Shown here: piece by piece, positions 39,343-62,320 of the stretch
How the letters are laid out: the number at the start of each line of letters is the position of its first letter
How positions within the stretch are numbered: the first letter of the stretch is position 1
Origin: Streptomyces sp. TN58
GTDB taxonomy: Bacteria; Actinomycetota; Actinomycetes; Streptomycetales; Streptomycetaceae
Length of the DNA stretch: 64,000 bases
Reading direction: 5' to 3'
NCBI RefSeq assembly: GCF_001941845.1
Contig: NZ_CP018870.1
Span: 3,876,501-3,940,500 of the forward strand
Notes under the pieces: model-generated
The model's input: only the letters and a program-made list of their open reading frames with translations
Database searches by the model: none
What the model was told of the DNA's origin: nothing
Position numbers and translations under genes: made by a program

Positions 39343-39352
39343 CTTCCGGCAT

Positions 39353-39403
39353 GCGGGAGGGCCCGGACCCCTGGAAGCACCAGGGGGGTCCGGGCCCTCC
39401 CGC
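39353..39403. terminator. Strong bidirectional terminator
   Basis: A perfect 19-bp inverted repeat (GCGGGAGGGCCCGGACCCC and its complement) with a 13-base loop that can pair further. It separates the convergent DUF5324 and LysM genes. Confidence 0.85.
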
Positions 39404-39440
39404 GTCCCCGCGTACGGGGTCACGGGACGGAGCGGGAAGG

Positions 39441-39965: not shown

Positions 39966-40151
39966 GTCTGTACGCCTCCGGCGTGAGGGTCCCCCCTGGG
40001 GTGTCGGTGCCTTTCCCCACTGTCCGCCACCCGGCGGCGGCCGGCCCAGCGGCGGGGCCGACCGGGGGACGCGCGGGCACCGGGAACGCGCCGGGAAGGG
40101 ACCGGGAAGACGTGGCACCAGCATCGTGGGACACGATGGAGGAGAAGGACC

Positions 40152-41057
40152 GTGATCATCAGACAGGCCGCCGAGCGCGTGGTTCTGGTCAGGCCCGGGC
40201 CGGGGCTCCTGCACGCCGCGGCCGTGGCGGGCCTGGAGGTCTGGGTGGTGTCGGACCGCGCGGCTCCGCCCCCGGACACCCTTCACTCCTCCGGGCTGGC
40301 GCCGCAGCGGATCCTGCCGGCGGACTTCGACGACGCCGCCGCGCTGGGGGACCTGCTGGCCGACACCGTCCTCCGGCACGGGATCGGCCACGTCCTGTAC
40401 CTCGCGAGTGATCTCGTACAGGGCCTCGGCAGCGCTGCGGCGGCCGCCGCCGAAGACGTGCTGCGGGACCTCGCCGGACAACGACCGCGCCCTGCGGGCG
40501 GACTGCCGGACGCGGTCGCCGTCCGGCGCGTCCTCAACCAGAGCCGGACCTCGGCCGTCCGCGCCGAGGAGGCGGGGACCGTGGCCGAGGCCCGCGCCCT
40601 CGCCGAGGACTTCCCACTGCCCGTGGTCATCAAGTCCGCCGACGCGTCCGGCTGTTGGCGGACCGTACCGGTGCACGACCGGCACGGCCTGGACCGGTGG
40701 GCCGAGCAGGCCCGCGCCGCGCGCCACAGCGCCCCCTACCTCGTGGAGGAGCTGCTGACGGGTGCGAAGTTCCGTGTCGAGACCCTCAGCGTCGACGGCA
40801 TGCACCTGGTCGCGGGGATCACCCCCGAGGGGAGTGCCCCACCGCTGCCCGAGGCGGAGCGGGCCGGGATCCGCGCGACCGTACGGGCCCTGCTGGACCT
40901 GGTCGGCTACGAGTACGGCACCACGCGGACGGACGTGCTGGTCGGGGCACGGGGAACGCGCATCGCCGCGGCCGTGGAGCCCGGCCGGGAGCGGCCGCGC
41001 GAGCGTCCTTCCCGCGCCGCCGCCGCGACCGGTAGCGAGAGGGGAACGGACCGGTAA
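40152..41057 (+). CDS. ATP-grasp-like protein with degenerate active site
   Basis: 301 residues from GTG with GGAGGAGAAGGA upstream. An N-terminal biotin-carboxylase-like Rossmann part (RPGPGLLHAAAVAGLEVWVV) is followed by the ATP-grasp lid (LPVVIKSADASGCWRTVPV) and a YLVEELLTGAKFRVETLS strand. Where active enzymes have the metal-binding Glu and Glu-x-Asn, this protein reads RTDVLV and AAVEPGRE, then a disordered Arg-rich tail. It may be a pseudoenzyme or truncated. A carbon-nitrogen ligase for a peptide is the alternative. Confidence 0.55.
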   Translation: MIIRQAAERVVLVRPGPGLLHAAAVAGLEVWVVSDRAAPPPDTLHSSGLAPQRILPADFDDAAALGDLLADTVLRHGIGHVLYLASDLVQGLGSAAAAAAEDVLRDLAGQRPRPAGGLPDAVAVRRVLNQSRTSAVRAEEAGTVAEARALAEDFPLPVVIKSADASGCWRTVPVHDRHGLDRWAEQARAARHSAPYLVEELLTGAKFRVETLSVDGMHLVAGITPEGSAPPLPEAERAGIRATVRALLDLVGYEYGTTRTDVLVGARGTRIAAAVEPGRERPRERPSRAAAATGSERGTDR

Positions 41058-41145
41058 GGGACTGGGTCAGTCTGTGTCCTGTCGAAAGCGGCAGCCGTCA
41101 CACGGGGGCCGCACACCGGGTACCACGCACCAGGGGGTTCAGCAC

Positions 41146-41307
41146 ATGCGCAGCAAGCTGGTCGGACTGATCGGGATCTTCGCGGTGGCGCTGGTGACCG
41201 GAGCCGCCGTGACGGCGCAGACGGCGGACGCCGGTCAGCCCTCCGGCTACGAGGTGCGCGCGGACGACAAGGGACCGGGCGCCCCCTCCCCGCGCCCCGT
41301 CCCCTGA
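41146..41307 (+). CDS. Small exported peptide of unknown function
   Basis: 53 residues. A positively charged start (MRSK), a hydrophobic core (LVGLIGIFAVALVTGAAV) and an Ala-rich cleavage zone form a signal peptide; the predicted mature part is about 25-30 residues, ending in a proline-rich PSPRPVP. It has no ribosome site stronger than GGGGG at 16 bases, so expression is uncertain. It lies between the ATP-grasp gene and two NB-ARC regulators. A quorum or regulatory peptide is an inference; it may also be a fortuitous frame. Confidence 0.45.
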   Translation: MRSKLVGLIGIFAVALVTGAAVTAQTADAGQPSGYEVRADDKGPGAPSPRPVP

Positions 41308-41460
41308 CCCTGCACGGCGCCTGACCCGGGCCTCGCCTGGCCCGGGACGTCGCCTGACCGGCCCGTCAGCCGCCCGCCACGGCCCGGCGCCGCGCCGGAC
41401 GCCGGCGGTGCCCCGTACCGGATCCGCGGTACGGGGCAGCCGCCCGTGCCGGGCCGGTGG

Positions 41461-44400
41461 TCAGTAGGCCCGGCGGTGCTCCGGCAGCCCCATGGCCTCG
41501 AACAAGCCCTCCGCCGCGGCGCGGTGTCCGGCCGCCGCCGCAGGGTCTCCGAGCGCCTCGGCCGCGTGGGCGAGGCCCACCAGCGCCGCCGCCTCCTCGG
41601 CCCTGAAGCTCATCGGCGACGCGATCCGGTGGGCGTGGGCGTGCAGTTCCCGCGCCGTCCCGTGCTCCCCCCATGCCGCGTGGAGCCGCCCGAGGACGTT
41701 CTCCACCTTCGCGAGCCGGATCGGGGCCCCGCCCGTACGGCCGAGGACCAGGGCCCGCTCGGCGAACGCCCGCGCCGCCAGGCCGTCCTCGCGCTCCTGC
41801 GCGACCCGGGCGGACAGTGCGAGCACCAGGGCGACGTCGCCCGGGGACCTCGTCTCGTCGCACAGGTCCCGGGCCCGCTTCAGCGTGGCGTCCGCATCCG
41901 TGTACTCCTCCAGGCCGACCTGGGCGAAGGCGAGGTCGGTCAGGGCCGCGATCACGTTGCTGCGGTAGCCCAGTTCGCGGCCGATCCCGACCGCCCGGCG
42001 GGCGGCGGCGGCCGCCTCCGGATACCGGCCCCACCGCTCGTACAGCGTGCTGAGCGTGCTCAGTGTCTCGGCCTCCGCCCGGGCGTTGCCCAGCTCCCGG
42101 GCCATCGCGACCGACCGCTCCAGCAGCGGCAGGGCCTGCGCGTACCGCCCGAGCATCGACATCAGCAGCCCGGTGGTGGAGTCGCTGTGCGCCTCGGTGT
42201 GCCGGTCCCCGGCCCGCACCGCCGTCTCGCGCGCCTGCGTGGCCACGTCCAGGCCCTCCTCGAATCGGCCCAGTTTCCAGCAGGCGGCTCCCAGATTGGC
42301 CAGGCTGATGCCCAGCAGGGCCGGGTCGTCGAGGCGGCGGGCCGCGGCGACCGCCAGGTGCCCGACGCTCCAGAACTCGTCGAGCTGGCCCTGCGCGTGC
42401 AGGTGGAAGCCGACGTTGCGGCTCAGGCAGGCCGCGTAGCGGTCGTGGCCGGACCGCTCGGCGAGGGACACCGCCGCGAGCAGCCCGGCCTGTTCCCGGT
42501 CGAACCAGCCCACGGCCTCGTCGGCGCTCCTGAAGGCCGGCCGCTCGCCCCGGTAGGGCGGGATCCCGGTGGGCCGCTGCTCACGGCCCGGGAAGAGCAC
42601 CTCGCAGGCCGCGTCCGAGGTCGTCATGTAGTAGCCGAGGAGCCGTTCGACCGCCGCCGCGTCGTCCTCGGCCGTCGCCGGGCCCCGCAGGCCCTGCGCG
42701 AAGGTCCGCACCAGGTCGTGGAAGGTGTAGAGCCCGATGTCCGGCTGCTGTACGAGGTGGACGTCCAGCAGGAACTCCAGGGCGTCCTCGGCGTCCCGGA
42801 CGGCCGTGCCGAGGAGCGCCGCGGCCGAGTACACGTCGGTACCGGCGCACGGGTACAGGCTGAGGATGCGGAACGCGGTGCGGTACTCCTCGTCCATCGC
42901 CAGGTACGACAGCCGCAGAGTCGCCGCGACGCTGCGCTCCCCCGAACTCAGCTCGTCCATCCTGCGCGTCTCGTCGCGCAGCCGCTCGACGAGGTAACGC
43001 ACCGTCCAGCGCGGCCGGTTGCGCAGGCGGGCCGTCGCGATGCGCAGGGCCAGCGGCAGATGGCCGCACAGCTCGGCCAGTTCGGCGGAGGCCTCCGGCT
43101 CGGCGGCCACCCTGGCCGCGCCCAGCGTCTCGGCCATCAGGCTGGTGCTGTCCCCGGGTTCCATCGTCCCGATGGACACCCACTCGACACCGTCGAGGTC
43201 GAGGAGCCGCCCGCGGCTCGTGATCAGGACGAGGCAGCCCGGCGAGGCCGGCAGCAGCGGCCGGATCTGCGGGGCGGAGACCGCGTTGTCGAGCAGCAGC
43301 AGCACCCGCCGGCCTTCCAGTTTCGCCCGCCACAGGGCGGTGCGCCCCTCAAGGTCCTCCGGAATGCGGTCGCCGGGTGTGCCGAGGGTGCGCAGCAGGC
43401 CGTCGAGCGCGGCGGTGGGCGCGACGGGGCTGCCGCCCGGGGTGAAGCCGCGCAGGTCGATGTGGAGCTGCCCGTCGGGGTAACGGGCGGCCAGCCGGTG
43501 GGCGGCGTGCACGGCGAGGGTGGTCTTCCCCATGCCGCCCATGCCGTCAATGGCGACGATCCGGGAGTACCTCTCGCCGCCCCGGCAGGCTTCCCGGGCG
43601 TAGTCGAGGAGCCGGCCGAGCTCGCGGGCCCGGCCGGTGAAGTCGGAGAGGTCGTACGGAAGGGTGCAGGGGGCGTCGTCCGGCGCGGCCCCGGCCGGTG
43701 CGGGCTCCGGACGCAGCGGCTCCGACGGACGCGGCGGCTGCGGCTCCGCCGGTGACGGCGGCTGTGTCTGCTGCTCGGCCTGTGTCTGCGGCTGCTCGGA
43801 GACCGGTTCCCCGGCGGCCGCGTGGCCGCGCGGCGGGCCTGCCGGGCCCACCGGCGGGCCCGCCTCCGGCTCTGGACCCGCCGGTGGGGGAGCGGCCCGT
43901 ACGGGATCCGGTGCCCCGGGGGCCGCGTCCGCGGAGCCCGGCCGCTGCGGGGCCGCCAGCTCCGGTCCGTCCCGCAGGATCGCCTCGTACAGCCTGGCCA
44001 GTCCGGGGCCGGGGTCGATCCCGAGTTCGTCGACGAGCAGCTCGCGGACCTCCCCGTACTCCTTGAGGGCCTCCGCCTGCCGCCCCGAGCGGTACAGGGC
44101 CAGCATCAGCTGCCCCCGCAGCGTCTCCCTCAGAGGGTGCTGCGTGATGAGGGCGCGCAGGTCCGAGACCAGCTCCCCGCTCCCGCCGAGCGCGAGGGAC
44201 AGGTCGAAGAACTGCTCGGCCGCGGCCAGTCGGCGCTCTTCCAGCGCCGTCGCGGCGGCCTCGATCACCGGCCCGCCCGTGCCGGACAGGACCGCGCCCC
44301 GCCACAGCGCGAGCGCGGACCTCAGGCGCTCGGCGGCCGCCGGGCGGTCACCCTCCCGCAGGGCCTGCGCCGCCGCCCTCGACAGCGCGTCGAACTCCAG

Positions 44401-44754
44401 CAGATCGAGCTGCCGGTCCGTCACCGCGGCCCGGTAGCCGGGCCCGTCGGTGGCGATCACCGCCGTCCCGCCGGGAATGCGCCGGCGCAGGTCGGCGACG
44501 GCCTTGCGGACCTGGTGCGCGGCGGTCGCGGGCGGGTCCTTCTCCCAGGTCGCCTCCACCAGCCGGGCCACCGGCACCACCCGGCCCGATTCGAGCAACA
44601 GCATGCACAGGACGCGTTCCTGGATCGATCCCCCCAGCCGCAGCCGTGCCCCGCCCGCCCAGCCTTCCAGCGAGCCGAGCACGTTGAAGCGCGGAAGGTC
44701 CCCCTCACGCCCCCCGGTGCTTCTCTCCCAGGTCTCCGTATCCGCCCCCGCCAT
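41461..44754 (-). CDS. AfsR/SARP-type regulator with NB-ARC and TPR domains
   Basis: 1097 residues from ATG with a GGGGGG ribosome site; longer forms reach into the divergent gene. Domains in order: OmpR-type winged helix (~20-105), bacterial transcriptional activation domain (~110-265), a long Pro/Ala/Glu linker, NB-ARC ATPase with P-loop GMGGMGKTT (404-412) and Walker B RRVLLLLDN, then TPR repeats to the end. It resembles AfsR, which integrates kinase signals to activate antibiotic regulators. It is divergent from a second NB-ARC regulator. Its targets are probably within this island, as inferred from position. Confidence 0.88.
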   Translation of the reverse strand: MAGADTETWERSTGGREGDLPRFNVLGSLEGWAGGARLRLGGSIQERVLCMLLLESGRVVPVARLVEATWEKDPPATAAHQVRKAVADLRRRIPGGTAVIATDGPGYRAAVTDRQLDLLEFDALSRAAAQALREGDRPAAAERLRSALALWRGAVLSGTGGPVIEAAATALEERRLAAAEQFFDLSLALGGSGELVSDLRALITQHPLRETLRGQLMLALYRSGRQAEALKEYGEVRELLVDELGIDPGPGLARLYEAILRDGPELAAPQRPGSADAAPGAPDPVRAAPPPAGPEPEAGPPVGPAGPPRGHAAAGEPVSEQPQTQAEQQTQPPSPAEPQPPRPSEPLRPEPAPAGAAPDDAPCTLPYDLSDFTGRARELGRLLDYAREACRGGERYSRIVAIDGMGGMGKTTLAVHAAHRLAARYPDGQLHIDLRGFTPGGSPVAPTAALDGLLRTLGTPGDRIPEDLEGRTALWRAKLEGRRVLLLLDNAVSAPQIRPLLPASPGCLVLITSRGRLLDLDGVEWVSIGTMEPGDSTSLMAETLGAARVAAEPEASAELAELCGHLPLALRIATARLRNRPRWTVRYLVERLRDETRRMDELSSGERSVAATLRLSYLAMDEEYRTAFRILSLYPCAGTDVYSAAALLGTAVRDAEDALEFLLDVHLVQQPDIGLYTFHDLVRTFAQGLRGPATAEDDAAAVERLLGYYMTTSDAACEVLFPGREQRPTGIPPYRGERPAFRSADEAVGWFDREQAGLLAAVSLAERSGHDRYAACLSRNVGFHLHAQGQLDEFWSVGHLAVAAARRLDDPALLGISLANLGAACWKLGRFEEGLDVATQARETAVRAGDRHTEAHSDSTTGLLMSMLGRYAQALPLLERSVAMARELGNARAEAETLSTLSTLYERWGRYPEAAAAARRAVGIGRELGYRSNVIAALTDLAFAQVGLEEYTDADATLKRARDLCDETRSPGDVALVLALSARVAQEREDGLAARAFAERALVLGRTGGAPIRLAKVENVLGRLHAAWGEHGTARELHAHAHRIASPMSFRAEEAAALVGLAHAAEALGDPAAAAGHRAAAEGLFEAMGLPEHRRAY

Positions 44755-44925
44755 CGGACATCCCCCCGTCAGCACAGCCCTGACCAGGGCCATGTCAACG
44801 GGATCATAGGTGGTGCCTCCAGCACGCGGTAAGCATCCGGTAGCGGATCGGGAAGCCCCGCGCGGACAGTTCACGACAGGCCCGACAAGGCTGCGGACAA
44901 AGCGAGTTGTGAAAAGGAGACGAGT

Positions 44926-46392
44926 GTGGGAAGACCGGAGCGGCCACTGGCCCCCGACGCCGGACCCGTCACCGCGTTCGCCCGGGAACTGCGCATGCTG
45001 CGGACCGCGGCGGGCAGCCCCGGCTACCGCGAGATGGCCACCCGTGCCATGTTCTCCGCGTCGGTCCTCTCCGAGGCGGCGGCCGGATACCGCCTCCCGA
45101 CCCTCCAGGTCGCCCTCGCCTTCGCCGAAGCCTGCGGCGGGGACCGTGCCTGCTGGGAGCGGCGCTGGCACGAGGCGGCGCGCGCCTGTGGCGACGACGG
45201 CGCCCCCCGCCCCCCGGCCAAGGCCGTGCAGGCGCACCACGAGAACGAACTGCGCGCCGCCGACGTGCGCGCCGTGCTCCCGCCGCCGGCCCAGCTCCCG
45301 ATGGAGCCGCACACCCTGGTGGGACGGTCGGCCCTGCTCCGGCAGGCCCGATCCCTGACCGACCGGTCCCCCGGCGGAGAGCACCAGGTGGCACCGCTGG
45401 TGATCAGCGGTCAGATCGGTGCCGGCAAGTCGGCCTTCGCGCTGCGCCTGGCCCGTGAACTGGCGGCGAACCTGCCCGACGGACAGCTCTACGCGAACCT
45501 GGACCCGGCCGCCGGCGGACACGGCGACGCCGCCGGGATCGCGGGCGGCTTCCTGGAGGCGCTGGGCATCCCCGCCGGCCGCGTCCCCGCCGACCCGGGT
45601 CAGCGCATCGGGCTCTACCGGTCCCTCCTCAACCGCCGCCGGCTGCTCGTCGTACTCGACAACGTGCGCCACGAGCACCAGGTACGGGACCTGCTGACGG
45701 CCGCGCCCGAGAGCCGCGTCCTCATCACCAGCCGCTCCCGGCTGCTCGGCCTGGACGGGGTACGCCGGATACGCGTGCCCGTCCTGGAGCGGAACGAGTC
45801 GATGGAAGTGCTGGCCCGGCTGCTGGGCAGCGACCGGGTCGGTGTCGAACCGCGGGCCTGCCTGCTACTCGCCGACGCCTGCGGTGACCTGCCGCTGGCG
45901 CTGAACCTGGCGGGCCGGCGCATCGCGGCCCGACCGGAGTGGATGCTCCAGCACGCGGTGTCGGACCTGATCGGCGACCGGCGGCGGGACCCCGCCCGCT
46001 TCCTCGGCCGGCTCCGGGTGGGTGACGACGCCCTGGACGCCCGCCTCGACGACGCCTACCGGCAGCTGACGCCGTGGGCCCGCCTGATGCTGCGCCAGTT
46101 CGCCGGCTCGGAGCACCCGCCCTCGGTGGACGACGTCGTGTACGGGTCGGCCGAGGCGCTGGCCGCCCTGGTCGAGCGCTCCGCCCAACCGGTCGAGGAC
46201 CTCCTCGAACGCCTCCTGGACGCCGGCCTCCTCGACCACGGCGGGCTGCCCGGGCAGTACGGTCTGACGCCGATGGCCCGTGCGTTCGCCCTGACCCAGC
46301 CGGACCCCACCCAGGAGCCCCCGCCCGCCGCACCCCGCCCCGGCGCTCCCGCCCTCACGGGCGGCCGACGCCACTTCGACGACACCCCCTAA
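44926..46392 (+). CDS. HTH-NB-ARC regulator, SARP-like STAND ATPase
   Basis: 488 residues from GTG with AAAGGAG at 7 bases. An N-terminal helix-turn-helix-like region (FARELRMLRTAAGSPGYREM) is followed by NB-ARC with P-loop GQIGAGKSA (~162-170), Walker B RLLVVLDN and the sensor TSRSRLLGLDG. The NB-ARC half is clearly homologous to that of the divergent SARP (shared DGQL, LITSR, GLPLAL-type motifs) but the TPR region is absent. It overlaps the next gene's stop by four bases in a tail-to-tail position. Confidence 0.75.
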   Translation: MGRPERPLAPDAGPVTAFARELRMLRTAAGSPGYREMATRAMFSASVLSEAAAGYRLPTLQVALAFAEACGGDRACWERRWHEAARACGDDGAPRPPAKAVQAHHENELRAADVRAVLPPPAQLPMEPHTLVGRSALLRQARSLTDRSPGGEHQVAPLVISGQIGAGKSAFALRLARELAANLPDGQLYANLDPAAGGHGDAAGIAGGFLEALGIPAGRVPADPGQRIGLYRSLLNRRRLLVVLDNVRHEHQVRDLLTAAPESRVLITSRSRLLGLDGVRRIRVPVLERNESMEVLARLLGSDRVGVEPRACLLLADACGDLPLALNLAGRRIAARPEWMLQHAVSDLIGDRRRDPARFLGRLRVGDDALDARLDDAYRQLTPWARLMLRQFAGSEHPPSVDDVVYGSAEALAALVERSAQPVEDLLERLLDAGLLDHGGLPGQYGLTPMARAFALTQPDPTQEPPPAAPRPGAPALTGGRRHFDDTP

Positions 46393-47558
46393 AGGGTCCC
46401 CGGCGACCCGACGCCGGCCAGCCGGTCGGCGAGTGAGCGCGCGACGAGCGGCGCGAACGCGAAGGACGTCCCGCCGTCGGCCGCGTACGCGTATCCCGCG
46501 CCGCCCAGGGCGGCCGGCGCCGTGCCGCCGGCCGGCGCGAAGGCCGCGTGGTAGGAGTCCTCGGCCGCGGTCACCCAGGCCGGGCCGAAGCCGGGCAGCA
46601 GGTCGCCGAACTCCCTCTCCAGGCTGCGCTGCCAGTACGGGTCGGTGGTGTGGTCGGTGATCTCGTCGACCGCCCGGCGGGCGGCGGCCGAGCTGAGCTT
46701 GAGGCCCGTACCGGCCACCGGCGGGACCAGCCGGGCTCCGCCCGGGGTGCCGGGGAAGGCGACGGCCGGGGTGGCCGCCCACGCCCGTGCCTGGTGCGGC
46801 GGCACCCGGCAGTGCAGGAGGGACTGCCGGTAGAGGGTCAGCCGCTCGGCGACGCCCTCCGGCAGGAGTTCACGCGAGCGGGGATCCACCGCCACGAGCA
46901 CCGCGTCACCGTGCACCGCCCGCCCGTCGGCCAGGCGTACGGTGCCGCTCGCGCCGTCGACGGCGGTCACGGCCCGGTGCTCGACCAGTCGGACGCCGCG
47001 CTGCCACTTCAGCCAGCCGGCGCAGGCGGCGAGGACGCGCCCGGCGAGCAGGACGCCGGCCTCCTCCTCCAGTACGGCCCCGAGACCGCCGTCCAGGCGC
47101 AGGTGCGGGTAGCGGTGGGACAGGTCGGCCGCGGTCAGCTCCCTGGCCGTCCCCCCGGCGCTCTCGACCAGGGCCGCGCCCGCCGCGGCCGCGGCGGGCG
47201 GCAGCACGGTGAGCGCTCCGGCCCGCTCGTAGAAGCGCGTCATGAGCAGCTCTTCCAGCTCGACCCAGCGGTGGTGCGCACGCAGCGCCGCCCGCGTCGC
47301 GGACGGGTCCGCGGGATGCAGGGCGCGCAGCACGCGGTGCCGGCCCGGGGAGGCGGCACCGGCGTCCGGGACGGAACCCCGGCCCACGACCGTGACCAGG
47401 TGTCCGTCGAGCACGCACTCGACCGCGGTGAGCAGGGCGACCACCCCGCCGCCCACGACCGTCACCCTCGCCGGCAGCCCGGCCCCCGGCCGGGACGGGG
47501 GCCGCCGGGCCGGGCGGCCGGAAGCCCGGACGGGCCGGGTCGGGGCGGTCGTGGACAC
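46389..47558 (-). CDS. FAD-dependent oxidoreductase, D-amino-acid-oxidase family
   Basis: 389 residues from GTG with AGGAG at 7 bases; the upstream extension is Arg/Pro-rich and unlikely. An FAD-binding GGGVVALLTAVE near residue 35, a second conserved region around TGLKLSSAAARRAVDE and a C-terminal GGTSFAFAPLVARSLAD are typical of DAO-type enzymes, which oxidise amino acids or related amines. The FAD glycine motif reads GGGVVA rather than GxGxxG, an accepted variant. Substrate unknown; it may tailor a compound of the island. Confidence 0.75.
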   Translation of the reverse strand: MSTTAPTRPVRASGRPARRPPSRPGAGLPARVTVVGGGVVALLTAVECVLDGHLVTVVGRGSVPDAGAASPGRHRVLRALHPADPSATRAALRAHHRWVELEELLMTRFYERAGALTVLPPAAAAAGAALVESAGGTARELTAADLSHRYPHLRLDGGLGAVLEEEAGVLLAGRVLAACAGWLKWQRGVRLVEHRAVTAVDGASGTVRLADGRAVHGDAVLVAVDPRSRELLPEGVAERLTLYRQSLLHCRVPPHQARAWAATPAVAFPGTPGGARLVPPVAGTGLKLSSAAARRAVDEITDHTTDPYWQRSLEREFGDLLPGFGPAWVTAAEDSYHAAFAPAGGTAPAALGGAGYAYAADGGTSFAFAPLVARSLADRLAGVGSPGTL

Positions 47559-47778
47559 GGGGGCTCCTGGGAGGTCGGGCTCCGGCGCCGACCGGAACGG
47601 CCCGGTGACGGCACGGCCGGGTGTGCGCCGGCGGGAGGCGGATCGGCGGCCGGCCACACGGCCCCCGTCCCGTCGGGCACGTCCGGTTCCGCGCTGAGCC
47701 GGCTCCGCCCATTGCACGGCCCCGCCCGATTGCCCGGAAGCGAGCCGGGCCCCGGACAATCAAAGCCGTCCCGGATGG

Positions 47779-48090
47779 TCAGGAGTTGGCGCGGATCAGG
47801 TCCAGCAGGCCGGGGAAGCGTTCGTCCAGTTCCGCCCGGCGCAGGGTCGCCGCCCTGCTGTTGCCGCGGTCCACCTGCCCCACCAGGCCCGCCTGGCGCA
47901 GGACCTTGAAGTGGTGGGTGATCGTCGACTTCGAGACGGGCAGGTTGAAGGACGCGCAGGTCCGCGCCGTGCCTTCCGGCTCCTTCAGCAGGGCTGAGAC
48001 GACGGCGTAGCGCAGCGGGTCGGCGAGCGCGCTCAGCACGGCCGGCAGGCTCATCTCCTCGATCGAGGGGTGGCCATCCTCATCGGGCAT
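47779..48090 (-). CDS. ArsR-family regulator without a metal site
   Basis: 103 residues, winged helix with the recognition segment FNLPVSKSTITHHFKVLRQ. There is no ELCVCDL-like metal motif; the only cysteine is in RTCASF. Divergent from an MFS transporter, with an excellent palindrome between them, so it probably represses the transporter in response to an organic ligand. Confidence 0.85.
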   Translation of the reverse strand: MPDEDGHPSIEEMSLPAVLSALADPLRYAVVSALLKEPEGTARTCASFNLPVSKSTITHHFKVLRQAGLVGQVDRGNSRAATLRRAELDERFPGLLDLIRANS

Positions 48091-48147
48091 CGCATGGTCC
48101 TTCCTGAGGTACGGGTTGCATCATACCTCTCTTCTGTGTCAGCTTAA

Positions 48148-48162
48148 GGTTCGATTCGAACC
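48148..48162. promoter_or_regulatory. Palindromic operator of the ArsR/MFS promoter
   Basis: GGTTCGA-T-TCGAACC, a 7-1-7 perfect inverted repeat, 48 bases before the MFS start and 58 before the ArsR start. It is a good dimer-binding site for the ArsR protein. Confidence 0.65.
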
Positions 48163-48209
48163 GTACCTGGTCGCGCCGCCGGCCGGGCCGAGCCTGGAGT
48201 TGTGCCCCC

Positions 48210-49775
48210 ATGAGTACGCAGACCACGTCGTCGGCCGCGCCACCTGTGCAGGCGGAAGGGCAGCCGGGCCGCACCGTCACCCTGGCCGCGGTGCTCCTCG
48301 CGGTGTTCGTCGTCCCCATGTCGATCTCCGGAACCGCCGTCGCACTGTCCGACATCGGCGCCGACACCGACGCCGGCCTCGCCCCCCTGCAGTGGGTGGT
48401 GAACGCCTTCAACGTCGCCTTCGCCTGCTTCACGCTCGTCTGGGGCTCCATCGCCGACATCGTCGGCAGGGTCAAGGCCTTCGCGGCCGGCGCCGCCGTC
48501 TACGCCGTGGCCTCGCTCGCCAGCGCCCTCGCCACCAACGTCCTCTGGCTGGACGGCGCCCGCGCCCTCGCCGGCATCGGCGGCGCGGCGATCTTCTCCT
48601 GCGGCGCGGCGATCATCGCGACCGTCTTCGACGGCCCCGCACGCGCCAAGGCGTTCGCGCTGTTCGGCACCGTCGCGGGCGTCGGCGTGGCGATCGGCCC
48701 GTCGCTGGCCGGCGTACTCGTCCAAGGCCTCGGCTGGCGCTGGGTGTTCGCCGTGCACGCCGTCGCCCTGCTCCTGGTGCTGCTCGCGGTGCCCGCCATC
48801 GCCAAGGCCATGCCCGCCGACGGCGGCAGCGGTGCGAGCATCGACGTCCCCGGCAGCGCGCTGTTCGTCGTCGCCATGGTGCTGCTGACCACCGCCATCG
48901 TGCAGGGCTCCCAGTGGGGCTGGGGCAGCACCGGGGTGCTCGGGCTGTTCGCGGGCGCCGTCGTGGTCCTCGCGGTCTTCGCGGCGGTCGAGAACCGCAG
49001 GGAGCACCCCATGCTGGACCTGAGCGTCCTGCGCAACCGGCGCTTCGTCGGCCTGTGCCTGGTGCCCGTCGCGGCGTCCTTCGGCTTCGTCACGATGCTC
49101 ACCTACCTGCCGAGCTACCTGACCGCGGCCACCGGCCGCGACACCGGCACCGCCGGCCTGATCATGCTGCTGCTCACCGCGCCCGTGCTGGTCTGCCCGA
49201 TGCTCGCCGCGAAGCTCGTCACCCGCGGGGTCTCCGCGCTCACCCTCATCTACGTCAGCCTCGCCTGCCTGGTCGTCGGCGACCTGGCGCTCACGCTCTT
49301 CTCGCCGGACGTGACGATCCTCGTCGTCGCCCTGCCGATGCTCGTCACCGGCGCCGGCATGGGCCTCTCGGCCGGGCTGGTCGACGGCCAGGCGCTGGAA
49401 CTGATCGACCCGGCCAAGGCCGGCATGGCCGCCGGGTTCCTCAACACCCTGCGCCTCGGCAGCGAGGCCATCGCCGTCGCCGTGTACGGGTCCGTCCTCG
49501 CGACCGTCCTCGGCACCCGCATCGAGGACGGCATCGGCGACCACGCCGGCGCCGCGAACGCCGGCCAGGTCGCCGACCAGGCCGCCGGCGGCGACTTCGC
49601 CCGCGCCACCGAGCTGTCCGGCGCCGTGGACACCGAGGGCTTCACCCACTTCCTCGCCCAGTCCTACGACTCCGCCTTCCACACCGTCCTGTGGGGACTC
49701 GCCGCGGTCTGCGTCGTGCTCTGCGCCGTGGTCGCCGCCCTGCTGCGCGGCGGCCCCGCCAAGAGCGCCGCGTGA
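48210..49775 (+). CDS. MFS drug exporter, 14-helix DHA2 family
   Basis: 521 residues with about 14 hydrophobic helices. Family motifs include LQWVVNAFNVAFACFTLVWG, GRVKAF in loop 2, and GPSLAGVLVQGLGWRWVF in helix 5 (quoted in part). It would export drugs or a metabolite of the island by proton antiport. It is controlled by the divergent ArsR protein, judging from the operator. A short hairpin follows. Confidence 0.9.
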   Translation: MSTQTTSSAAPPVQAEGQPGRTVTLAAVLLAVFVVPMSISGTAVALSDIGADTDAGLAPLQWVVNAFNVAFACFTLVWGSIADIVGRVKAFAAGAAVYAVASLASALATNVLWLDGARALAGIGGAAIFSCGAAIIATVFDGPARAKAFALFGTVAGVGVAIGPSLAGVLVQGLGWRWVFAVHAVALLLVLLAVPAIAKAMPADGGSGASIDVPGSALFVVAMVLLTTAIVQGSQWGWGSTGVLGLFAGAVVVLAVFAAVENRREHPMLDLSVLRNRRFVGLCLVPVAASFGFVTMLTYLPSYLTAATGRDTGTAGLIMLLLTAPVLVCPMLAAKLVTRGVSALTLIYVSLACLVVGDLALTLFSPDVTILVVALPMLVTGAGMGLSAGLVDGQALELIDPAKAGMAAGFLNTLRLGSEAIAVAVYGSVLATVLGTRIEDGIGDHAGAANAGQVADQAAGGDFARATELSGAVDTEGFTHFLAQSYDSAFHTVLWGLAAVCVVLCAVVAALLRGGPAKSAA

Positions 49776-49790
49776 CCGTCCGGTGAGCGG

Positions 49791-49813
49791 GGGGAGCGCG
49801 CACCGCGCTCCCC
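49791..49813. terminator. Hairpin after the MFS gene
   Basis: GGGGAGCGCG-CAC-CGCGCTCCCC, a 10-bp stem. No U tract. Confidence 0.55.
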
Positions 49814-49967
49814 TCCCGCACCGCACGACACCCACGAGACCGGCCCGGCGCCCCGATTCCCCCGTCACGGCGCCGGGCCTCCCGCGTTCACCCGCGCCGC
49901 CGCCGCGCTCCACGCGGCACACCGTGCCCGCCCGGCGGGGCGGCACCAGGAAAGGATCCGCGCCCCC

Positions 49968-51479
49968 ATGAACCGTCCCCTCCACGACATCCGCCCCGCC
50001 CCCGCACATGCCCAGGTCCTGGTCGTCGGGGGCGGACCCGTCGGCATGCTCGCAGCCGCCGAACTCGGGCACTACGGCGTCTCCACCGTCGTACTCGAAG
50101 CCGAACCGCGCACCCTCGACCAGCCCAAGGCCGGCACCCTGCACGCCCGCACCGTGCAGGGCCTCGCCCGGCGCGGTCATCTGCCCGCGCACGCCGCGAC
50201 CGAGGACCGGCTGCGGCGCAGTACCGCCGACGCGTTCCACTTCGCGGGCATGCCGGGACTCGTCATCACCGCCCCCGCCACCGAGCCGGGCCCCATCGTC
50301 GGCCGCTCGCAGGCCGATCTGGAGCGGGACTTCGAGCAGCGGGCCCGCGCCAGGGGCGTCAGCGTGCTGCGCGGACACCGGGTGACCGACATCCACCAGG
50401 GGCCCGACTCCGTCGAGGTGACCGCCGAAGGACCCGACGGCGTACGGCGCTTCACCGCCGAGTACGCCATCGGCGCGGACGGCGCCCGCAGCACCGTACG
50501 CGAGCTGCTGGGATGGCCCGAGGACACGCACCCCGCCACCGTCTCCGCCCTGCTCGGCCTGGTGCGGCTGACCGACCCGGACCGCGTGCCGTACGGCTGG
50601 CACCGCACCCCGCGCGGCTGGACGGTGGCGGGCGTCAACCCGTACGGGCACAGCCGGTTCATCACGATCGACTTCCGCGGTCCGCACCCCGACCGGCACT
50701 CCCCGCTCACCCTCGCCGAGCTGCGCCGCGAGGGCGAGCGCATCCTCGGCCAGGACGTGCCGATGGCCGACCCGGCCTTCTTCTCCCGCTTCAGCGACTT
50801 CGCCCGCCTGGTACGCGACTACCGCCAGGGCCGGGTGTTCCTCGCCGGCGACGCCGCCCATGTGCACTTCCCCGTGGGCGGACAGGGCCTCAACCTCGGT
50901 CTGCAGGACGCACTCAACCTCTCCTGGAAACTCGCCCACACCCTGGCGGGCACGGCCGGCAAGGACCTGCTCGACACCTACGACGCCGAACGGCGCCCCG
51001 CCGGACAGCGCGTCATCGACAACACCCGCGCCCAGCTGGCCCTGATGCGGCCGGACCCCGGCCTCGACCCGCTGCGCGACCTCGTCACCGAACTGCTCGG
51101 CCTGGACGAGGTGAAGGGCCGCCTCGGCCACATGATCAGCGCCCAGGAGACGGCGTACCCCCCGGCGGGCGGGCACGGTTCCCGCTGGGAGGGCCGCTTC
51201 CTGCCGAACCTGCCCCTCACCACGGACGACGGCCCGACCGATCTGACCCGGCTGCTGCTCCCGGGCCGTCCCGTACTGGTCCTGCTCGGCGAGGACGGCG
51301 GGGTCCACCGCGAACAGGCCGGGCGCTGGGCCCACGTGGTGCGCACGGTCACCGCGACGACCGCCGTCGCGATGCCGTGGGACGCCGTCCTGGTACGGCC
51401 CGACGGCTATGTCGCCTGGGCACCGGACGGCGGCCCGCTGGCCGACACGCTGCGCCAGTGGTTCGGCGAACCCCGCTGA
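49968..51479 (+). CDS. FAD-dependent aromatic-ring hydroxylase
   Basis: 503 residues from ATG. Class A flavoprotein monooxygenase: N-terminal VVGGGPVGMLAAAELGHYG, the substrate-FAD GADGARST motif, GDAAHVHFPVGGQGLNLG and a C-terminal thioredoxin-like domain. Closest in type to PgaE/RdmE polyketide hydroxylases and rifampicin monooxygenases, so it may tailor or inactivate an aromatic compound. It lies downstream of the MFS gene but separated by 192 bases with a hairpin, so probably its own transcript. Confidence 0.88.
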   Translation: MNRPLHDIRPAPAHAQVLVVGGGPVGMLAAAELGHYGVSTVVLEAEPRTLDQPKAGTLHARTVQGLARRGHLPAHAATEDRLRRSTADAFHFAGMPGLVITAPATEPGPIVGRSQADLERDFEQRARARGVSVLRGHRVTDIHQGPDSVEVTAEGPDGVRRFTAEYAIGADGARSTVRELLGWPEDTHPATVSALLGLVRLTDPDRVPYGWHRTPRGWTVAGVNPYGHSRFITIDFRGPHPDRHSPLTLAELRREGERILGQDVPMADPAFFSRFSDFARLVRDYRQGRVFLAGDAAHVHFPVGGQGLNLGLQDALNLSWKLAHTLAGTAGKDLLDTYDAERRPAGQRVIDNTRAQLALMRPDPGLDPLRDLVTELLGLDEVKGRLGHMISAQETAYPPAGGHGSRWEGRFLPNLPLTTDDGPTDLTRLLLPGRPVLVLLGEDGGVHREQAGRWAHVVRTVTATTAVAMPWDAVLVRPDGYVAWAPDGGPLADTLRQWFGEPR

Positions 51480-51491
51480 CGGGTGCGGCGA

Positions 51492-51521
51492 GGGGCGGGC
51501 ACGGAAGTCCGTGCCCGCCCC
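51492..51521. terminator. Bidirectional terminator between hydroxylase and P450
   Basis: GGGGCGGGCACGGA-AG-TCCGTGCCCGCCCC, a 14-bp perfect stem with a two-base loop between convergent genes. Confidence 0.8.
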
Positions 51522-51556
51522 CGTCCCGGCGCCGCCGCGTCAGCCGGTGCCCCGGT

Positions 51557-52765
51557 TCACCACCGCACGGGCAGCGCCGTCGGCCGCCGCAGCACCGTTC
51601 CGTTGTCCCAGGGCACCTCGGCCGGGTCGACGGCCAGGGCCAGGTCCGGGAACTCCTGGGCCAGCCGCGTCAGTACGGCCACGATCTCCATACGGGCGAG
51701 CGCGGCGCCCATGCAGTGGTGCATCCCGTAGCCGAACTGCAGGTGCCGCTTGGCCGGCGCACGGTCGGGGTCGATGGTCAGCGGGTCCGGGAACGCGTCG
51801 GGATCCCGGTTGGCGGCGAAGGCGTCCGGGTAGACCACGGTGCCCTGCGCCACGACCCCCTCGGTGGTCTCCAGGTCCCGGCCCGCGATCCGGGGGAACG
51901 CGGAGATGGCCCCCAGCGGGATCAGCCGGATCAGCTCCTCCGCGAGACGCGGGGCGATCGCGGGGTCGTCGGCGAGCCGGCGCCACAGCGCGGGCGCCGC
52001 CAGCAGCGCGTACAGCGACTTGGTCAGCACCGACACCACGTTCTGGTCGCCGCCGAGCAGCGAGCCGAAGAAGATGCCGGTGAGCTCGGCGTCGTCCAGC
52101 GGCGGCTCGGCCCGGTCCCGGTCGGCTCGGAAGCGGTCGATCAGGCCTCCGGGCACCGCCGGCCGGACCCCCGTCACCAGGTCCTCCACGTACCCGTACA
52201 ACCGGTAGAAGTGCTGGACCAGGTCCGGCACGTCCTCGTGCGAGGCGATCTGCACGATCCGCGACGACGGGCGGAAGTACGGCACGTCTTCCAGCGGGAA
52301 GCCGAGGAAGTGGGCGTTGACGGTGACCGGGACGGTGTCGAGGAGGTCGGCGAAGAGGTCGGGGGACGCGCTGGAGCGCAGTCGCCGGATGCCCTCGTCC
52401 ACCACCTCGCCGATCACCGGGCGCAGCCGCTCGGTACCCGCGGCGCTGTAGTCCGCGGCGACGAAGCCCCTGATCCGGGCATGGTGCGGGGCGTCCAGGT
52501 TGAGCAGCAGCTCCTTCGGCATCACGGTCGGCAGGAAGCTCGGCCCGTCCTCGACGTTGGTCTCGGCGCGACCGGACGCCGGGTCGGTCAGCACCTTGTG
52601 CACGTCGGCGTAGCGGGTCAGGTGGGCCACCTTGTGGCCGCTCGGCAGCTGGATCAGCGGGACGCCGCCCGGGCCGCGCTCGTCGAGCACGGTGAAGGCC
52701 GGGACGGGGTCGAGGTGGGGGATGTCCGTGACGGTGACGGCCGCGGACGTGGCGGTGGTGGTCAT
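51557..52765 (-). CDS. Cytochrome P450, probable hormone hydroxylase
   Basis: 402 residues. Haem-binding FGYGMHHCMGAALA (Cys351) and the ExxR motif EELIR (277-280) are intact. The I-helix reads GSLLGGDQNV (about 234-243), so the usual acid-alcohol pair (Glu/Asp-Thr) is Gln-Asn, an uncommon variant. It is the last gene of a compact afsA-HAD-P450 operon (27 bases after the HAD gene), a set that recalls S. rochei srrX-srrP-srrO, where the P450 hydroxylates the side chain of a butenolide hormone. The role is inferred from context. Confidence 0.85.
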   Translation of the reverse strand: MTTTATSAAVTVTDIPHLDPVPAFTVLDERGPGGVPLIQLPSGHKVAHLTRYADVHKVLTDPASGRAETNVEDGPSFLPTVMPKELLLNLDAPHHARIRGFVAADYSAAGTERLRPVIGEVVDEGIRRLRSSASPDLFADLLDTVPVTVNAHFLGFPLEDVPYFRPSSRIVQIASHEDVPDLVQHFYRLYGYVEDLVTGVRPAVPGGLIDRFRADRDRAEPPLDDAELTGIFFGSLLGGDQNVVSVLTKSLYALLAAPALWRRLADDPAIAPRLAEELIRLIPLGAISAFPRIAGRDLETTEGVVAQGTVVYPDAFAANRDPDAFPDPLTIDPDRAPAKRHLQFGYGMHHCMGAALARMEIVAVLTRLAQEFPDLALAVDPAEVPWDNGTVLRRPTALPVRW

Positions 52766-52792
52766 GTGTGCTCCGTGGGGAAGAAGGGTGCG

Positions 52793-53449
52793 TCAGACGA
52801 GTGCGGGCAGCCCGGTGAGGCCCGCCAGCTCGCGTACGGTCCGGGCGTTGTTGCGGAAGTGCACCGCGCGCCAGCCGACGGACCGGGCCGCGGCGCAGTT
52901 CTCGGCGAGGTCGTCGATCAGTACGCACTCCGCGGCCGGCACGCCCGCCTCCTTCTCGGCCCGGCGGAAGATCTCCGGGTCGGGCTTGCGGACGCCCACC
53001 ACGCAGGAGTCGACGATGCAGTCGACCTCGCCGACGGGCGCGACGATCGCGCGCCAGTACGGCTCCCACTCGACGACGTTGTTGCTGAGGATCCCGACCC
53101 GGTAGCCGTGGTCCTTGGCGTGCCGGGCCGTGGCCGCCATCACCGGGTTGACGCGGACCCCCTCGAACCACTGCCGGCCGAACTCCTCGAAGCGCGCGCG
53201 GGACAGGTCGATGCCGGGGTCGGCCTCCCTCAGGACGCGGACCATCGCCCGCCCCCACTCGGCCTCGGTGAGCAGGGCCAGTTCGAGGGGTGCCAGAGGC
53301 TCGACACCCAGCTCGGCCGCGACCGCGGCCAGCGCCGTCTTCATCTGACGCGGCGTGATGCCGGTGCGGGCGTGGTACGAGTCGAAGAGCTCGTCGAGCG
53401 GTGGCGAGAGCACGCCGCCGAAGTCGAACCAGATCATGGGCTGGGGCAC
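52793..53449 (-). CDS. HAD-family phosphatase
   Basis: 218 residues from GTG with GGAGAG at 8 bases. HAD motif I is FDFGGVLS, in which the second Asp is replaced by Gly, as in YihX-like phosphatases; motif II is ILSNN; motif III is KPDPEIF with the conserved Lys; motif IV is LIDDLAEN. In the gamma-butyrolactone route an enzyme must remove phosphate from the butenolide phosphate made by AfsA, and this gene sits directly between afsA and the P450. The phosphatase role is an inference from that position. Confidence 0.75.
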   Translation of the reverse strand: MPQPMIWFDFGGVLSPPLDELFDSYHARTGITPRQMKTALAAVAAELGVEPLAPLELALLTEAEWGRAMVRVLREADPGIDLSRARFEEFGRQWFEGVRVNPVMAATARHAKDHGYRVGILSNNVVEWEPYWRAIVAPVGEVDCIVDSCVVGVRKPDPEIFRRAEKEAGVPAAECVLIDDLAENCAAARSVGWRAVHFRNNARTVRELAGLTGLPALV

Positions 53450-53491
53450 TGCGGTCTCTCCTTGTGTCGCCCGGATACGGGACACGGGCTC

Positions 53492-54517
53492 TCAGGCGCC
53501 CGCGCCGGCGGTGGCGGTGGCGTAGGAGGACCGGTTCAGCAGCGCCCCGCCGATGGGGCTGGTCAGCGCGAGGTGCACCCTGGCGCGGGCGATCTGCTCC
53601 TCCTGGGTCATGGTGATCTCGAACGCCACCGTGTCCGGGGTCGGCGATTCCACCACCCGCACCAGGCAGTCCGTGGCCAGCTCGAACTCGCCGAAGCGGG
53701 TGAAGTCCGTCTCCACCCGGGTGAGCAGCAGCCCTTGCGGCGACAGGCCGAAGAGCTCGTGCGCGGCGTGCACCGCCGACTGGCGGAAGCCCTCGAAGAT
53801 CAGCGCACCCGGGATGTGGTCGAGCGGGTGGTCGAAGAGGGCCGGGTTGGCCTGGTCGACGACCACCTGGGTGAGCACCTCGTGTTCGCGGACCTCGGTC
53901 TCGGACAGCACGACGTTGTGCGGGGAGACGCGGCCCACGGCCATCGGGGGCACGCGGCGGCCCGTGTGGTGCGGCCGGGCGGTGTCGAGCGCGAGCGAGG
54001 CCCGGCCCTTCTCCCGCATCCGGTCCCAGGCCCGGCCCGGCATCCACTGGCAGGTGGTGCGCATGGTCGCGGCCTCACGGCCGTCCACCGTGAGGACCAT
54101 GTCGAGCGTGCTGCCGGTGACGACGCCGTCGCGGTGCTTCAGCCCCGCCTGCCGGGCGTGGATCCGCACGTGGCCCGGCCGGGCGCCGATGTGCAGGGCG
54201 GTGATGTCGGTGACGTTCATCTCGCCGCCGTTGAAGATGAACTTCTCGTCGATCGCGGCGTCGAGGAAGGTGTGGGCCGCGTAGATCGACGCCTGGCGGA
54301 AGACCTCGACGAGGAGCAGCGGGTCGTAGACGGCGGGAGTGGTGATCTGGTCGCTGTAGTAGCTGTGCACACGCGGAAGTTGCGCGGCGATGAGGTATTC
54401 GTCCTCGGCCACCCGGACCGAGTCCGTGAGGAACACCTCGCAGACGGCTGCTCGGTGCACAAGGGCCCGCGTCACGGTGCTCGCGTAGCTGAGTTCGGTG
54501 GCCAGGGTCGTGGACAT
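53492..54517 (-). CDS. afsA: AfsA/ScbA-type gamma-butyrolactone biosynthesis enzyme
   Basis: 341 residues, two AfsA hotdog repeats. The first repeat shows YDPLLLVEVFRQASIYAAH (64-82), the second FDHPLDHIPGALIFEGFRQ (228-246) with the family HxxxDHxPG. AfsA couples a beta-keto acyl-ACP to dihydroxyacetone phosphate, the first committed step to gamma-butyrolactones and butenolides, hormones that control antibiotic production. The start ATG is well placed. It heads an operon with a HAD phosphatase and a P450. No receptor or reductase gene is within the window. Confidence 0.92.
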   Translation of the reverse strand: MSTTLATELSYASTVTRALVHRAAVCEVFLTDSVRVAEDEYLIAAQLPRVHSYYSDQITTPAVYDPLLLVEVFRQASIYAAHTFLDAAIDEKFIFNGGEMNVTDITALHIGARPGHVRIHARQAGLKHRDGVVTGSTLDMVLTVDGREAATMRTTCQWMPGRAWDRMREKGRASLALDTARPHHTGRRVPPMAVGRVSPHNVVLSETEVREHEVLTQVVVDQANPALFDHPLDHIPGALIFEGFRQSAVHAAHELFGLSPQGLLLTRVETDFTRFGEFELATDCLVRVVESPTPDTVAFEITMTQEEQIARARVHLALTSPIGGALLNRSSYATATAGAGA

Positions 54518-54535
54518 GGCTGAGTTCCCCCTCTT

Positions 54536-54571
54536 GCATGCAGGTACGTCTCCAAACGGAGGTACGCATGC
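54536..54571. promoter_or_regulatory. Inverted repeat upstream of afsA, candidate autoregulatory element
   Basis: GCATGC (54536-54541) and GCATGC (54566-54571) enclose GTAC and CTCC/GGAG segments in inverted order, with one or two inserted bases. Length and position (19 bases before the afsA start) suit a TetR-type receptor, but it is not a textbook ARE. The 390-base gap it sits in otherwise shows only the tRNA-Ala terminator. Confidence 0.4.
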
Positions 54572-54861
54572 GACCGTACCTTGATCGACGGTCCTCCCAC
54601 CGTGGCGTACGCCACTCCGGCGCCGGTCCGACGCACCGTTTTAGCGAGACTTCAGCCCGGCCAACCCCGCGGGAGGGCGACCGGGTTGCCCGCGCGCGCC
54701 GGTCCCCGCCGATAGGTGTATCCACCATACTTTCGGACAGCGGCCGACCCGGCAACGACATATCCGCGGCCGCACCGAGGAGCCGCACCGCGGACGACCC
54801 CGCACCCCCGGCCGATACCGCGGCCGGGACCGCGGCCGGGACCGCAGCCGTGGCGGGCATG

Positions 54862-54904: not shown

Positions 54905-54910
54905 CTGATG

Positions 54911-54983
54911 TGGAGCCTAGGAGATTCGAACTCCTGACATCTGCCTTGCAAAGGCAGCGCTCTACCAACTGAGCTAAGGCCCC
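54911..54983 (-). tRNA. tRNA-Ala (anticodon TGC)
   Basis: 73 nt. Acceptor GGGGCCT/AGGCTCC (one G-U pair), D arm TAGCTCAGTTGGTAGAGC, anticodon stem-loop CTGCC-TTTGCAA-GGCAG giving TGC, T arm AGGAG-TTCGAAT-CTCCT, discriminator A. No integrase or matching direct repeat was found beside it. Confidence 0.96.

Positions 54984-59704: not shown

Positions 59705-62320
<2,616 letters not shown>

Follow-up and report, generated by a model that had tools for sequence, protein, structure and literature searches.

The AfsA unit and its genes

The stretch analysed here (the window) is a 64,000-nucleotide piece of the chromosome of Streptomyces sp. TN58, and within it a unit of six genes, spanning 47779-54517, is built in two arms around a gene for an AfsA-type enzyme. 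One arm, read on the minus strand, encodes AfsA, a haloacid dehalogenase (HAD)-type phosphatase and a cytochrome P450; the other, read on the plus strand, encodes an exporter of the major facilitator superfamily (MFS) and a flavin monooxygenase, and converges on the P450 gene with 77 bases in between. A short gene for an ArsR-fold regulator, divergent from that of the exporter, completes the set, and copies of a 22-base-pair (bp) palindrome precede both arms.

53492-54517, minus strand: AfsA, two hotdog domains (PF03756, 134.8 bits; NCBIfam ScbA_BarX NF041195, 209.1 bits against a cut-off of 200)
52793-53449, minus strand: HAD-type phosphatase (PF00702, 53.1 bits; GTG start at 53449, AAGGAGA)
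51557-52765, minus strand: cytochrome P450 (PF00067, 56.6 bits; ExxR motif and haem cysteine)
49968-51479, plus strand: class A flavin monooxygenase of the second arm (PF01494, PF21274)
48210-49775, plus strand: MFS exporter, nearest to the EmrB/DHA2 kind (PF07690; TIGR00711 efflux_EmrB, 140.1 bits, under the cut-off of 230.2)
47779-48090, minus strand: RexT-like ArsR-fold regulator of 103 amino acids, divergent from the exporter (PF12840/PF01022); predicted repressor of both arms
48107-48128, plus strand: predicted operator site 1, AGGTACGGGTTGCATCATACCT, in the regulator/exporter promoter; conserved 22-bp palindrome
48147-48168, plus strand: predicted operator site 2, AGGTTCGATTCGAACCGTACCT; conserved 22-bp palindrome
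54560-54581, plus strand: predicted operator site 3, AGGTACGCATGCGACCGTACCT, 43 bases upstream of the afsA start

An initial annotation had described the minus-strand arm as a compact operon making a butenolide hormone. Its three open reading frames lie where it placed them, as do the gaps of 27 bases between the phosphatase and P450 genes and of 42 bases between those of AfsA and the phosphatase; the latter figure depends on the choice of start, being 42 for the GTG at 53449 behind AAGGAGA and 6 for the longest open reading frame. What it overlooked is the larger unit: the trio makes up a single arm of six genes that begin at 47779.

The order of activities proposed for this arm, in which a phosphatase and a P450 act after AfsA, has good support, both from retained catalytic or diagnostic residues and from the joint travel of the three genes across phyla. 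In AfsA, for which a sequence search at E 0.001 finds no solved structure, Glu71 is kept in 48 of 49 aligned rows (the remaining one has a gap) and Arg245 in all 49; we take these to be the ScbA residues reported as essential. Asp21, Lys167, Asp191 and Asp192 of the phosphatase (longest-frame numbering) are present in 41/41 rows. The P450, whose best solved relative is the mycinamicin IV hydroxylase/epoxidase (6.6e-54), has the ExxR motif in 42/42 rows and the haem cysteine in 41/42 (one gap), in an alignment that includes one second Nocardia P450 from outside the unit (L022:5338-6474). The solved structures nearest to the flavin enzyme are 4k5r and 3fmw, presumably Baeyer-Villiger enzymes of the MtmOIV type; its relatives on two Streptomyces plasmids (NZ_CP108530.1 and NZ_CP045549.1), about 55% identical, adjoin ScbR genes and lie near AfsA.

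Neither an ene-reductase nor a dehydrogenase is found among the six genes, and no nicotinamide adenine dinucleotide (NAD)-dependent dehydrogenase among the genes assigned in 46.4-54.9 kb, though one may lie further off. Given the lack of an ene-reductase in the set, the product is predicted to keep its ring double bond, unless a host enzyme acts on it.

Conservation of the unit across three phyla

The neighbourhood of AfsA was surveyed in 79 loci of named genomes, drawn from the best 80 of 99 matches to the window protein. Forty-seven of these (L003-L048 and L066) were called unit loci and 25 other AfsA loci served for comparison, whereas seven (L075-L081), in which only 49-69 AfsA residues matched, were left out of the tree and the neighbourhood counts. 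Near AfsA, the unit loci carry the phosphatase in 45 cases, the exporter in 43, the P450 in 41 and the flavin enzyme in 20, as opposed to 1, 0, 0 and 1 in the 25 others; the counts for phosphatase, P450 and exporter arise partly by construction, because the grouping used both AfsA match ranking and the gene content seen, and absences are less sure in the seven unit loci whose flanks fall short of 7 kb on one side or both (L018, L030, L037, L039 and L045-L047).

AfsA, phosphatase, P450 and exporter occur jointly in 41 loci, which belong to Actinomycetota (21; Streptomyces, Kitasatospora, Glycomyces, Nocardia, Rhodococcus, Williamsia, Gordonia and Corynebacterium), Pseudomonadota (17; Pseudomonas, Burkholderia, Janthinobacterium, Aquitalea, Cedecea, Vibrio and records named Pantoea and Paucimonas) and Campylobacterota (3; Helicobacter). 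The flavin enzyme was seen only in the first of these groups, being present in 20 of 25 actinobacterial unit loci against 0 of 22 proteobacterial and Helicobacter ones. In an AfsA tree of 82 rows, 51 unit rows fall on one side of a single branch (support 99/98), within which the 22 proteobacterial and Helicobacter proteins form one group (100/98). The Helicobacter unit has a G+C content of 34-36%, close to the 32-35% of its surroundings, which speaks against contamination.

Within the genus of the window, the unit is scattered. An AfsA match at E 1e-50 or better is found in 9 of 295 genomes, and phosphatase and P450 genes stand beside it in five, the window's own genome being included in both figures; that genome yielded a single AfsA protein. 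The closest named AfsA relatives among the matches listed come from S. virginiae (96%) and Streptomyces sp. NRRL F-2664 (93%). Among the open-licence literature matches listed, no title or abstract start deals with an AfsA-phosphatase-P450-exporter unit or with AfsA and an ArsR-type regulator.

No receptor gene is linked to the unit. Not one of the 47 unit loci has a ScbR/ArpA-type gene at a distance of 8 kb or less from AfsA, against 19 of the 25 others (Fisher test, 1.5e-12, a figure inflated by kinship), as counted with the lone ScbR protein of the window genome as probe; receptors played no part in the grouping. The unit thereby differs from the receptor-linked gamma-butyrolactone loci, of which ScbA/ScbR is an example and with which it has the AfsA enzyme in common, together with the ScbR-adjoining monooxygenase, dependent on flavin adenine dinucleotide (FAD), of the two plasmids mentioned above. 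For Rhodococcus, the part of the report available to us places gblA by the receptor gene gblR and gives no other conserved neighbours (PMC5735094).

Several arrangements seen in the course of the survey are recorded here in their own right. Eleven mostly Pseudomonas loci (L023, L025, L026, L030, L031, L033, L034, L036, L037, L038 and L043) have a TonB receptor gene upstream of the unit and sigma factor/FecR genes downstream, these families being named from L023; as the Pantoea and Paucimonas records show the same flanks, they may be misnamed Pseudomonas. On an S. goshikiensis plasmid (NZ_CP108058.1; L090:948-9875), an AfsA-phosphatase pair stands with an acyl carrier protein, ketosynthases, acyl-CoA carboxylase and FabG, an exporter following at some distance, so that AfsA chemistry is apparently integrated into a polyketide cluster there. 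A Rhodococcus fascians plasmid has an AfsA gene (37.7% identical over 82%) about 0.4 kb from a phosphatase match; the phosphatase match of an S. anthocyanicus plasmid has no AfsA gene beside it.

The RexT-like regulator and its palindrome

The best solved relative of the regulator by sequence is RexT (PDB 7txm; 9e-18, or 1.2e-23 by profile), and a model of the window protein (mean predicted local distance difference test score, pLDDT, 79) matches it with a template modelling (TM) score of up to 0.86 at 39% identity; none of the other structures among the 50 matches listed exceeds TM 0.66 over the model. According to the part of the report at hand, RexT is an ArsR-SmtB protein of Nostoc that senses hydrogen peroxide through a disulfide between a resolving cysteine (Cys40) and a peroxidatic one (Cys41) (PMC8960804). 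With the chain numbering of the structure offset by two, as judged from Arg26 and the cysteine pair, Cys45 of the window regulator aligns with the peroxidatic Cys41 and Thr44 with the resolving Cys40. A profile of the regulator matches in 21 of the 47 unit loci, the hosts ranging from Streptomyces to Vibrio (a raw count of 22 included L048, which has generic ArsR proteins without the cysteine motif). In all 21 the peroxidatic-type cysteine is kept; the resolving one is lacking, its place being taken by Thr in the window, while relatives have Thr, His or Ser there.

A paralogous regulator, 46-55% identical, is present in 7/7 Streptomyces-type genomes searched (in the window's genome at 844130-844405), and five of these paralog loci, those of G266 and G233 being left out, were read in context (L141-L145). 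Each of the five encodes a protein with the single cysteine and adjoins a gene for an Old Yellow Enzyme. Alpha,beta-unsaturated carbonyls are the substrates that enzymes of this kind reduce, and this neighbourhood fits a regulator family tuned to electrophiles.

In alignments of ten regulator/exporter intergenic regions and of seven afsA promoters, the shared blocks make up one 22-bp palindrome, AGGTWCG-N8-CGWACCT, which in the window stands in front of both arms of the unit; a further half-site, AGGTAC, lies at 54542, near operator site 3. Allowing three mismatches or fewer, the palindromic pattern has 7 matches in the window against 1.81 expected. Of 22 regulator-side regions, 17 score 13 or 14 of 14 consensus positions and the rest 10-12, and in 19 of the 22 none of 300 shuffles reaches the real score. 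Unit loci without the regulator, of which 18 of 26 were scored, give 7-9, although these controls are the 250 bases upstream of AfsA and not exporter promoters. Two Betaproteobacteria, Janthinobacterium (12/14) and Aquitalea (13/14), also have an almost complete palindrome next to the regulator.

A strict search for the palindrome in seven whole genomes found two sites in that of the window, both in the unit; overall, the five unit-bearing genomes have 8 sites, 7 of them at the unit, and two relatives lacking the unit have none. The backward pattern was absent from six genomes and matched a single, palindromic place in the seventh (G005). With a looser pattern the window genome has three further places, two of which are copies of each other, and the backward pattern also has three. 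A narrower candidate operator, TTCGA-N(0-2)-TCGAA, was rejected, as it is present at the promoter in the window only and it is the wider 22-bp form that is conserved.

In its fold and peroxidatic cysteine, and perhaps in its predicted TTCG/CGAA half-sites, the system resembles that of RexT. It differs from it in lacking the resolving cysteine, in the spacing of the half-sites (TTCG-type with TACG variants in a sequence scan of the predicted sites, 8 bases apart against 15 in RexT) and in the predicted control of a biosynthesis and export unit.

Predicted pathway, alternative readings and chromosomal setting

Taken together, gene content, regulator and sites suggest that the unit makes and exports an oxidised AfsA-type lactone, both arms being held by its own RexT-like repressor until the invariant cysteine is modified, a proposal drawn from sequence comparison that we judge about as apt to hold as to fail. 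AfsA would condense a beta-ketoacyl chain with dihydroxyacetone phosphate, ring closure would give a butenolide, the phosphatase would strip the phosphate and the P450 would oxidise the lactone or its side chain; unless a host enzyme reduced it, the product would retain the reactive ring double bond known from SRB-type butenolides and not end as a butanolide of the A-factor type. Export would fall to the MFS pump, and in actinobacteria the flavin monooxygenase may oxidise the product further or inactivate it. The regulator is predicted to repress both arms, with relief when the electrophilic product or an oxidant reacts with Cys45. If it is the product that modifies Cys45, production and export would be self-inducing.

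A number of observations weigh against this proposal. In the phosphatase, the second Asp of motif I is replaced by Gly in 41/41 rows, as is also the case in some HAD phosphatases, and in the P450 Asn242 takes the place of the usual I-helix Thr in 41/42, as in the active P450cin; both activities consequently need proof. S. novaecaesareae (L007) and a Buttiauxella metagenome-assembled genome (L040) carry AfsA, exporter and regulator but not the phosphatase, P450 or flavin enzyme, so that exporter and regulator appear to accompany AfsA itself and not the P450, and AfsA and phosphatase stand alone in four loci (Streptomyces L009, L010 and L016; Pseudomonas L035). The regulator is not seen in 26/47 unit loci, all Pseudomonas ones included, although the Helicobacter contigs start just before AfsA and may simply stop short of it; four short reading frames beside regulator-free unit loci match no Pfam family. 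Operator scores are weak in Glycomyces, Vibrio and Cedecea (11/14) and in Buttiauxella (10/14), and shuffles reach those of Glycomyces and Buttiauxella in 15 and 17 of 300. The palindrome was first found in the window and its close kin, which are thus no independent test, and the consensus, although made from Streptomyces sites, took its final form after those of Janthinobacterium and Aquitalea had been seen. An unlinked ScbR-family protein over the family cut-off occurs in 5/5 unit-bearing Streptomyces-type genomes, and in Rhodococcus. The invariant cysteine could instead be structural, and RexT itself, in the part of its report at hand, retains its affinity for DNA with either cysteine mutated (PMC8960804).

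The best-placed alternative, which we nonetheless consider unlikely, is that offered by the initial annotation with a receptor supplied: an SRB-type butenolide hormone operon read by a lone ScbR-type protein encoded 3.48 Mb away. As far as the accessible parts of the Streptomyces rochei reports go, the unit resembles the SRB pathway, with genes for an AfsA-type synthase, a phosphatase and a P450 (there srrX, srrP and srrO) together and, for the unit by prediction, a butenolide formed without ring reduction (PMC7564063, PMC12301235). The same material gives as neighbours of that locus a dehydrogenase (srrG), a thioesterase (srrH) and the repressors srrA and srrB (PMC7564063), and describes SRB-type butenolides as rare among 122 Streptomyces strains (PMC12301235). 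None of srrG, srrH, srrA and srrB has a counterpart among the six genes, which speaks against an SRB-like product; in comparison by gene description only, the unit lacks dehydrogenase, thioesterase and ArpA-type repressor, has exporter, flavin enzyme and ArsR-fold regulator instead, and extends over three phyla.

As to the receptor, the window genome encodes a single AfsA and a single ScbR-family protein that passes the family cut-off (203.6 bits; 444994-445551), and in its genus each of the four further unit-bearing genomes searched has one or two such receptor-family proteins. The initial annotation was right in finding no receptor of the ScbR/ArpA type within reach of the operon, but a regulator of a different fold, the RexT-like one, is in reach. 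A genome search of the kind it suggested, for a lone ArpA-type receptor, yields this one protein. In a crude scan with an ArpA-type consensus, the three intergenic regions of the unit gave at best 15 of 22 positions (14/22 in the afsA promoter), and an ArpA-type site at the unit is tentatively rejected. The lone receptor gene adjoins those of a histidine kinase and a LuxR-type response regulator, and no AfsA gene lies near it in the 20 kb read. Its upstream region contains, on the minus strand, AAAACCAGTCGGCAGGTACTT, which is reminiscent of a receptor site. An unlinked receptor of this type is common in many Streptomyces anyway.

A whole-genome survey of 14 further unit-bearing genomes gave matches that pass the ScbR-family cut-off for the four window relatives and Rhodococcus, and one falling just under it for Nocardia. 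There was no match at E 1e-30 in the other eight, comprising all seven Gram-negative ones (two Pseudomonas, Aquitalea, Vibrio, Cedecea and two Helicobacter) and Glycomyces; in these hosts the unit exists without such a receptor, which tells against a hormone role for it. A hormone role is possible in the Streptomyces hosts, where unlinked receptors are at hand. The earlier interpretation is on the whole partly supported: its enzymology has support, its hormone role and SRB identity as yet do not.

An extension of the preferred reading, in which the unit produces an electrophilic lactone under its own repressor, is that there is a second lactone-sensing route beside the ArpA/TetR receptors, in which the lone cysteine of an ArsR-fold protein is modified by the unit's butenolide and so induces synthesis and export, the whole forming a self-contained factory that moves between phyla and is represented by its biosynthetic part in Pseudomonas and Helicobacter. 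This we advance tentatively, as an idea with a minority of our confidence. A butenolide-forming AfsA-like enzyme in a Gram-negative bacterium would have a parallel in the gladiostatin/gladiofungin system of Burkholderia gladioli, where such an enzyme reportedly serves in polyketide chain release; here, AfsA is free-standing in a small unit.

It is also conceivable, though improbable, that the product is a furan of the 2-alkyl-4-hydroxymethylfuran-3-carboxylate type, methylenomycin-like, made with participation of the flavin enzyme and merely decorated by the P450. The set of AfsA, phosphatase and flavin enzyme would then presumably correspond to mmfL, mmfP and mmfH of the methylenomycin system, the flavin enzyme being a putative counterpart of MmfH. 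The flavin enzyme does accompany AfsA and phosphatase in the 20 actinobacterial unit loci counted above and, outside these and without a P450, in Thermobifida (L050); against the furan reading, none of the 22 proteobacterial and Helicobacter unit loci shows it.

The unit belongs to a longer segment that is specific to the window and some of its kin:

39243-54842, no strand: about 15.6 kb without a match at the same place in two relatives (blastn pieces longer than 150 bases)

In these two (G005 and G015), sequence left of 39.2 kb joins the flank of tRNA-Ala(TGC) within about 1 kb, leaving some 15.6 kb extra in the window, by gain here or loss there. The segment ends beside that tRNA gene (54910-54983) and holds the unit, an AfsR-type gene and a FAD oxidoreductase gene. 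A relative that is closer by a neighbouring gene (G012) has the tRNA gene and right flank but not the unit in the 19.5 kb read, and carries different DNA at the same place (window 38.5-54.9 kb), which looks like an insertion spot; none of the three had an AfsA match in the genus search. The chromosomal place is common to the window, S. virginiae and NRRL F-2664. The description of the operon as lying near oriC holds insofar as gyrA is at 59705-62320 and the window at 3.88-3.94 Mb of a single 7.585-Mb contig.

The AfsR-type gene (41461-45678; domains BTAD, NB-ARC and TPR), said to be next to the operon, is present but about 5.9 kb from the end of the P450 gene. It was rejected as a member of the unit, since it goes with it only in the closest relatives: G042 has retained both this gene (85% identical) and the FAD oxidoreductase gene (83%) on the same side of the unit, about 9-13 kb from the regulator, whereas G233 and G266 have neither within about 14-16 kb of theirs; flanks of 8 kb are too short to judge this gene in other loci. 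A tRNA-Ala(GGC) predicted at 44244-44337, inside the AfsR-type reading frame, is probably a false call. Elsewhere in the chromosome, matching hits at mirror positions (176995/7408019 and 115081/7469406) point to terminal inverted repeats 177 kb or more in length.

The patchy spread in the genus (5/295 genomes), the tRNA-flanking stretch missing in relatives, the EmrB-like exporter and the below-cut-off similarity of the class A monooxygenase to drug-modifying enzymes would all suit an antagonism cluster, in which the exported lactone is an antibiotic-like weapon, exporter and flavin enzyme protect the producer and the regulator answers damage; relatives of the flavin enzyme are, however, also found in receptor-linked lactone loci, where we know of no weapon role for it, and this explanation, too, is improbable.

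A-factor-type lactones are treated as actinobacterial hormones read by TetR-fold receptors, and public records label many of the unit's AfsA proteins 'ScbA/BarX family gamma-butyrolactone biosynthesis protein', a name that suggests a hormone system where the receptor may be absent. A block-conserved AfsA unit that has an exporter and, in 21/47 loci, a regulator resembling a thiol switch would, with members in Pseudomonas, enterobacteria, Vibrio and Helicobacter, take AfsA chemistry outside the hormone frame. Lactone sensing through cysteine, if true, hangs on one residue, and the operator and 103-residue regulator would offer a direct handle for derepressing the unit and finding its product.

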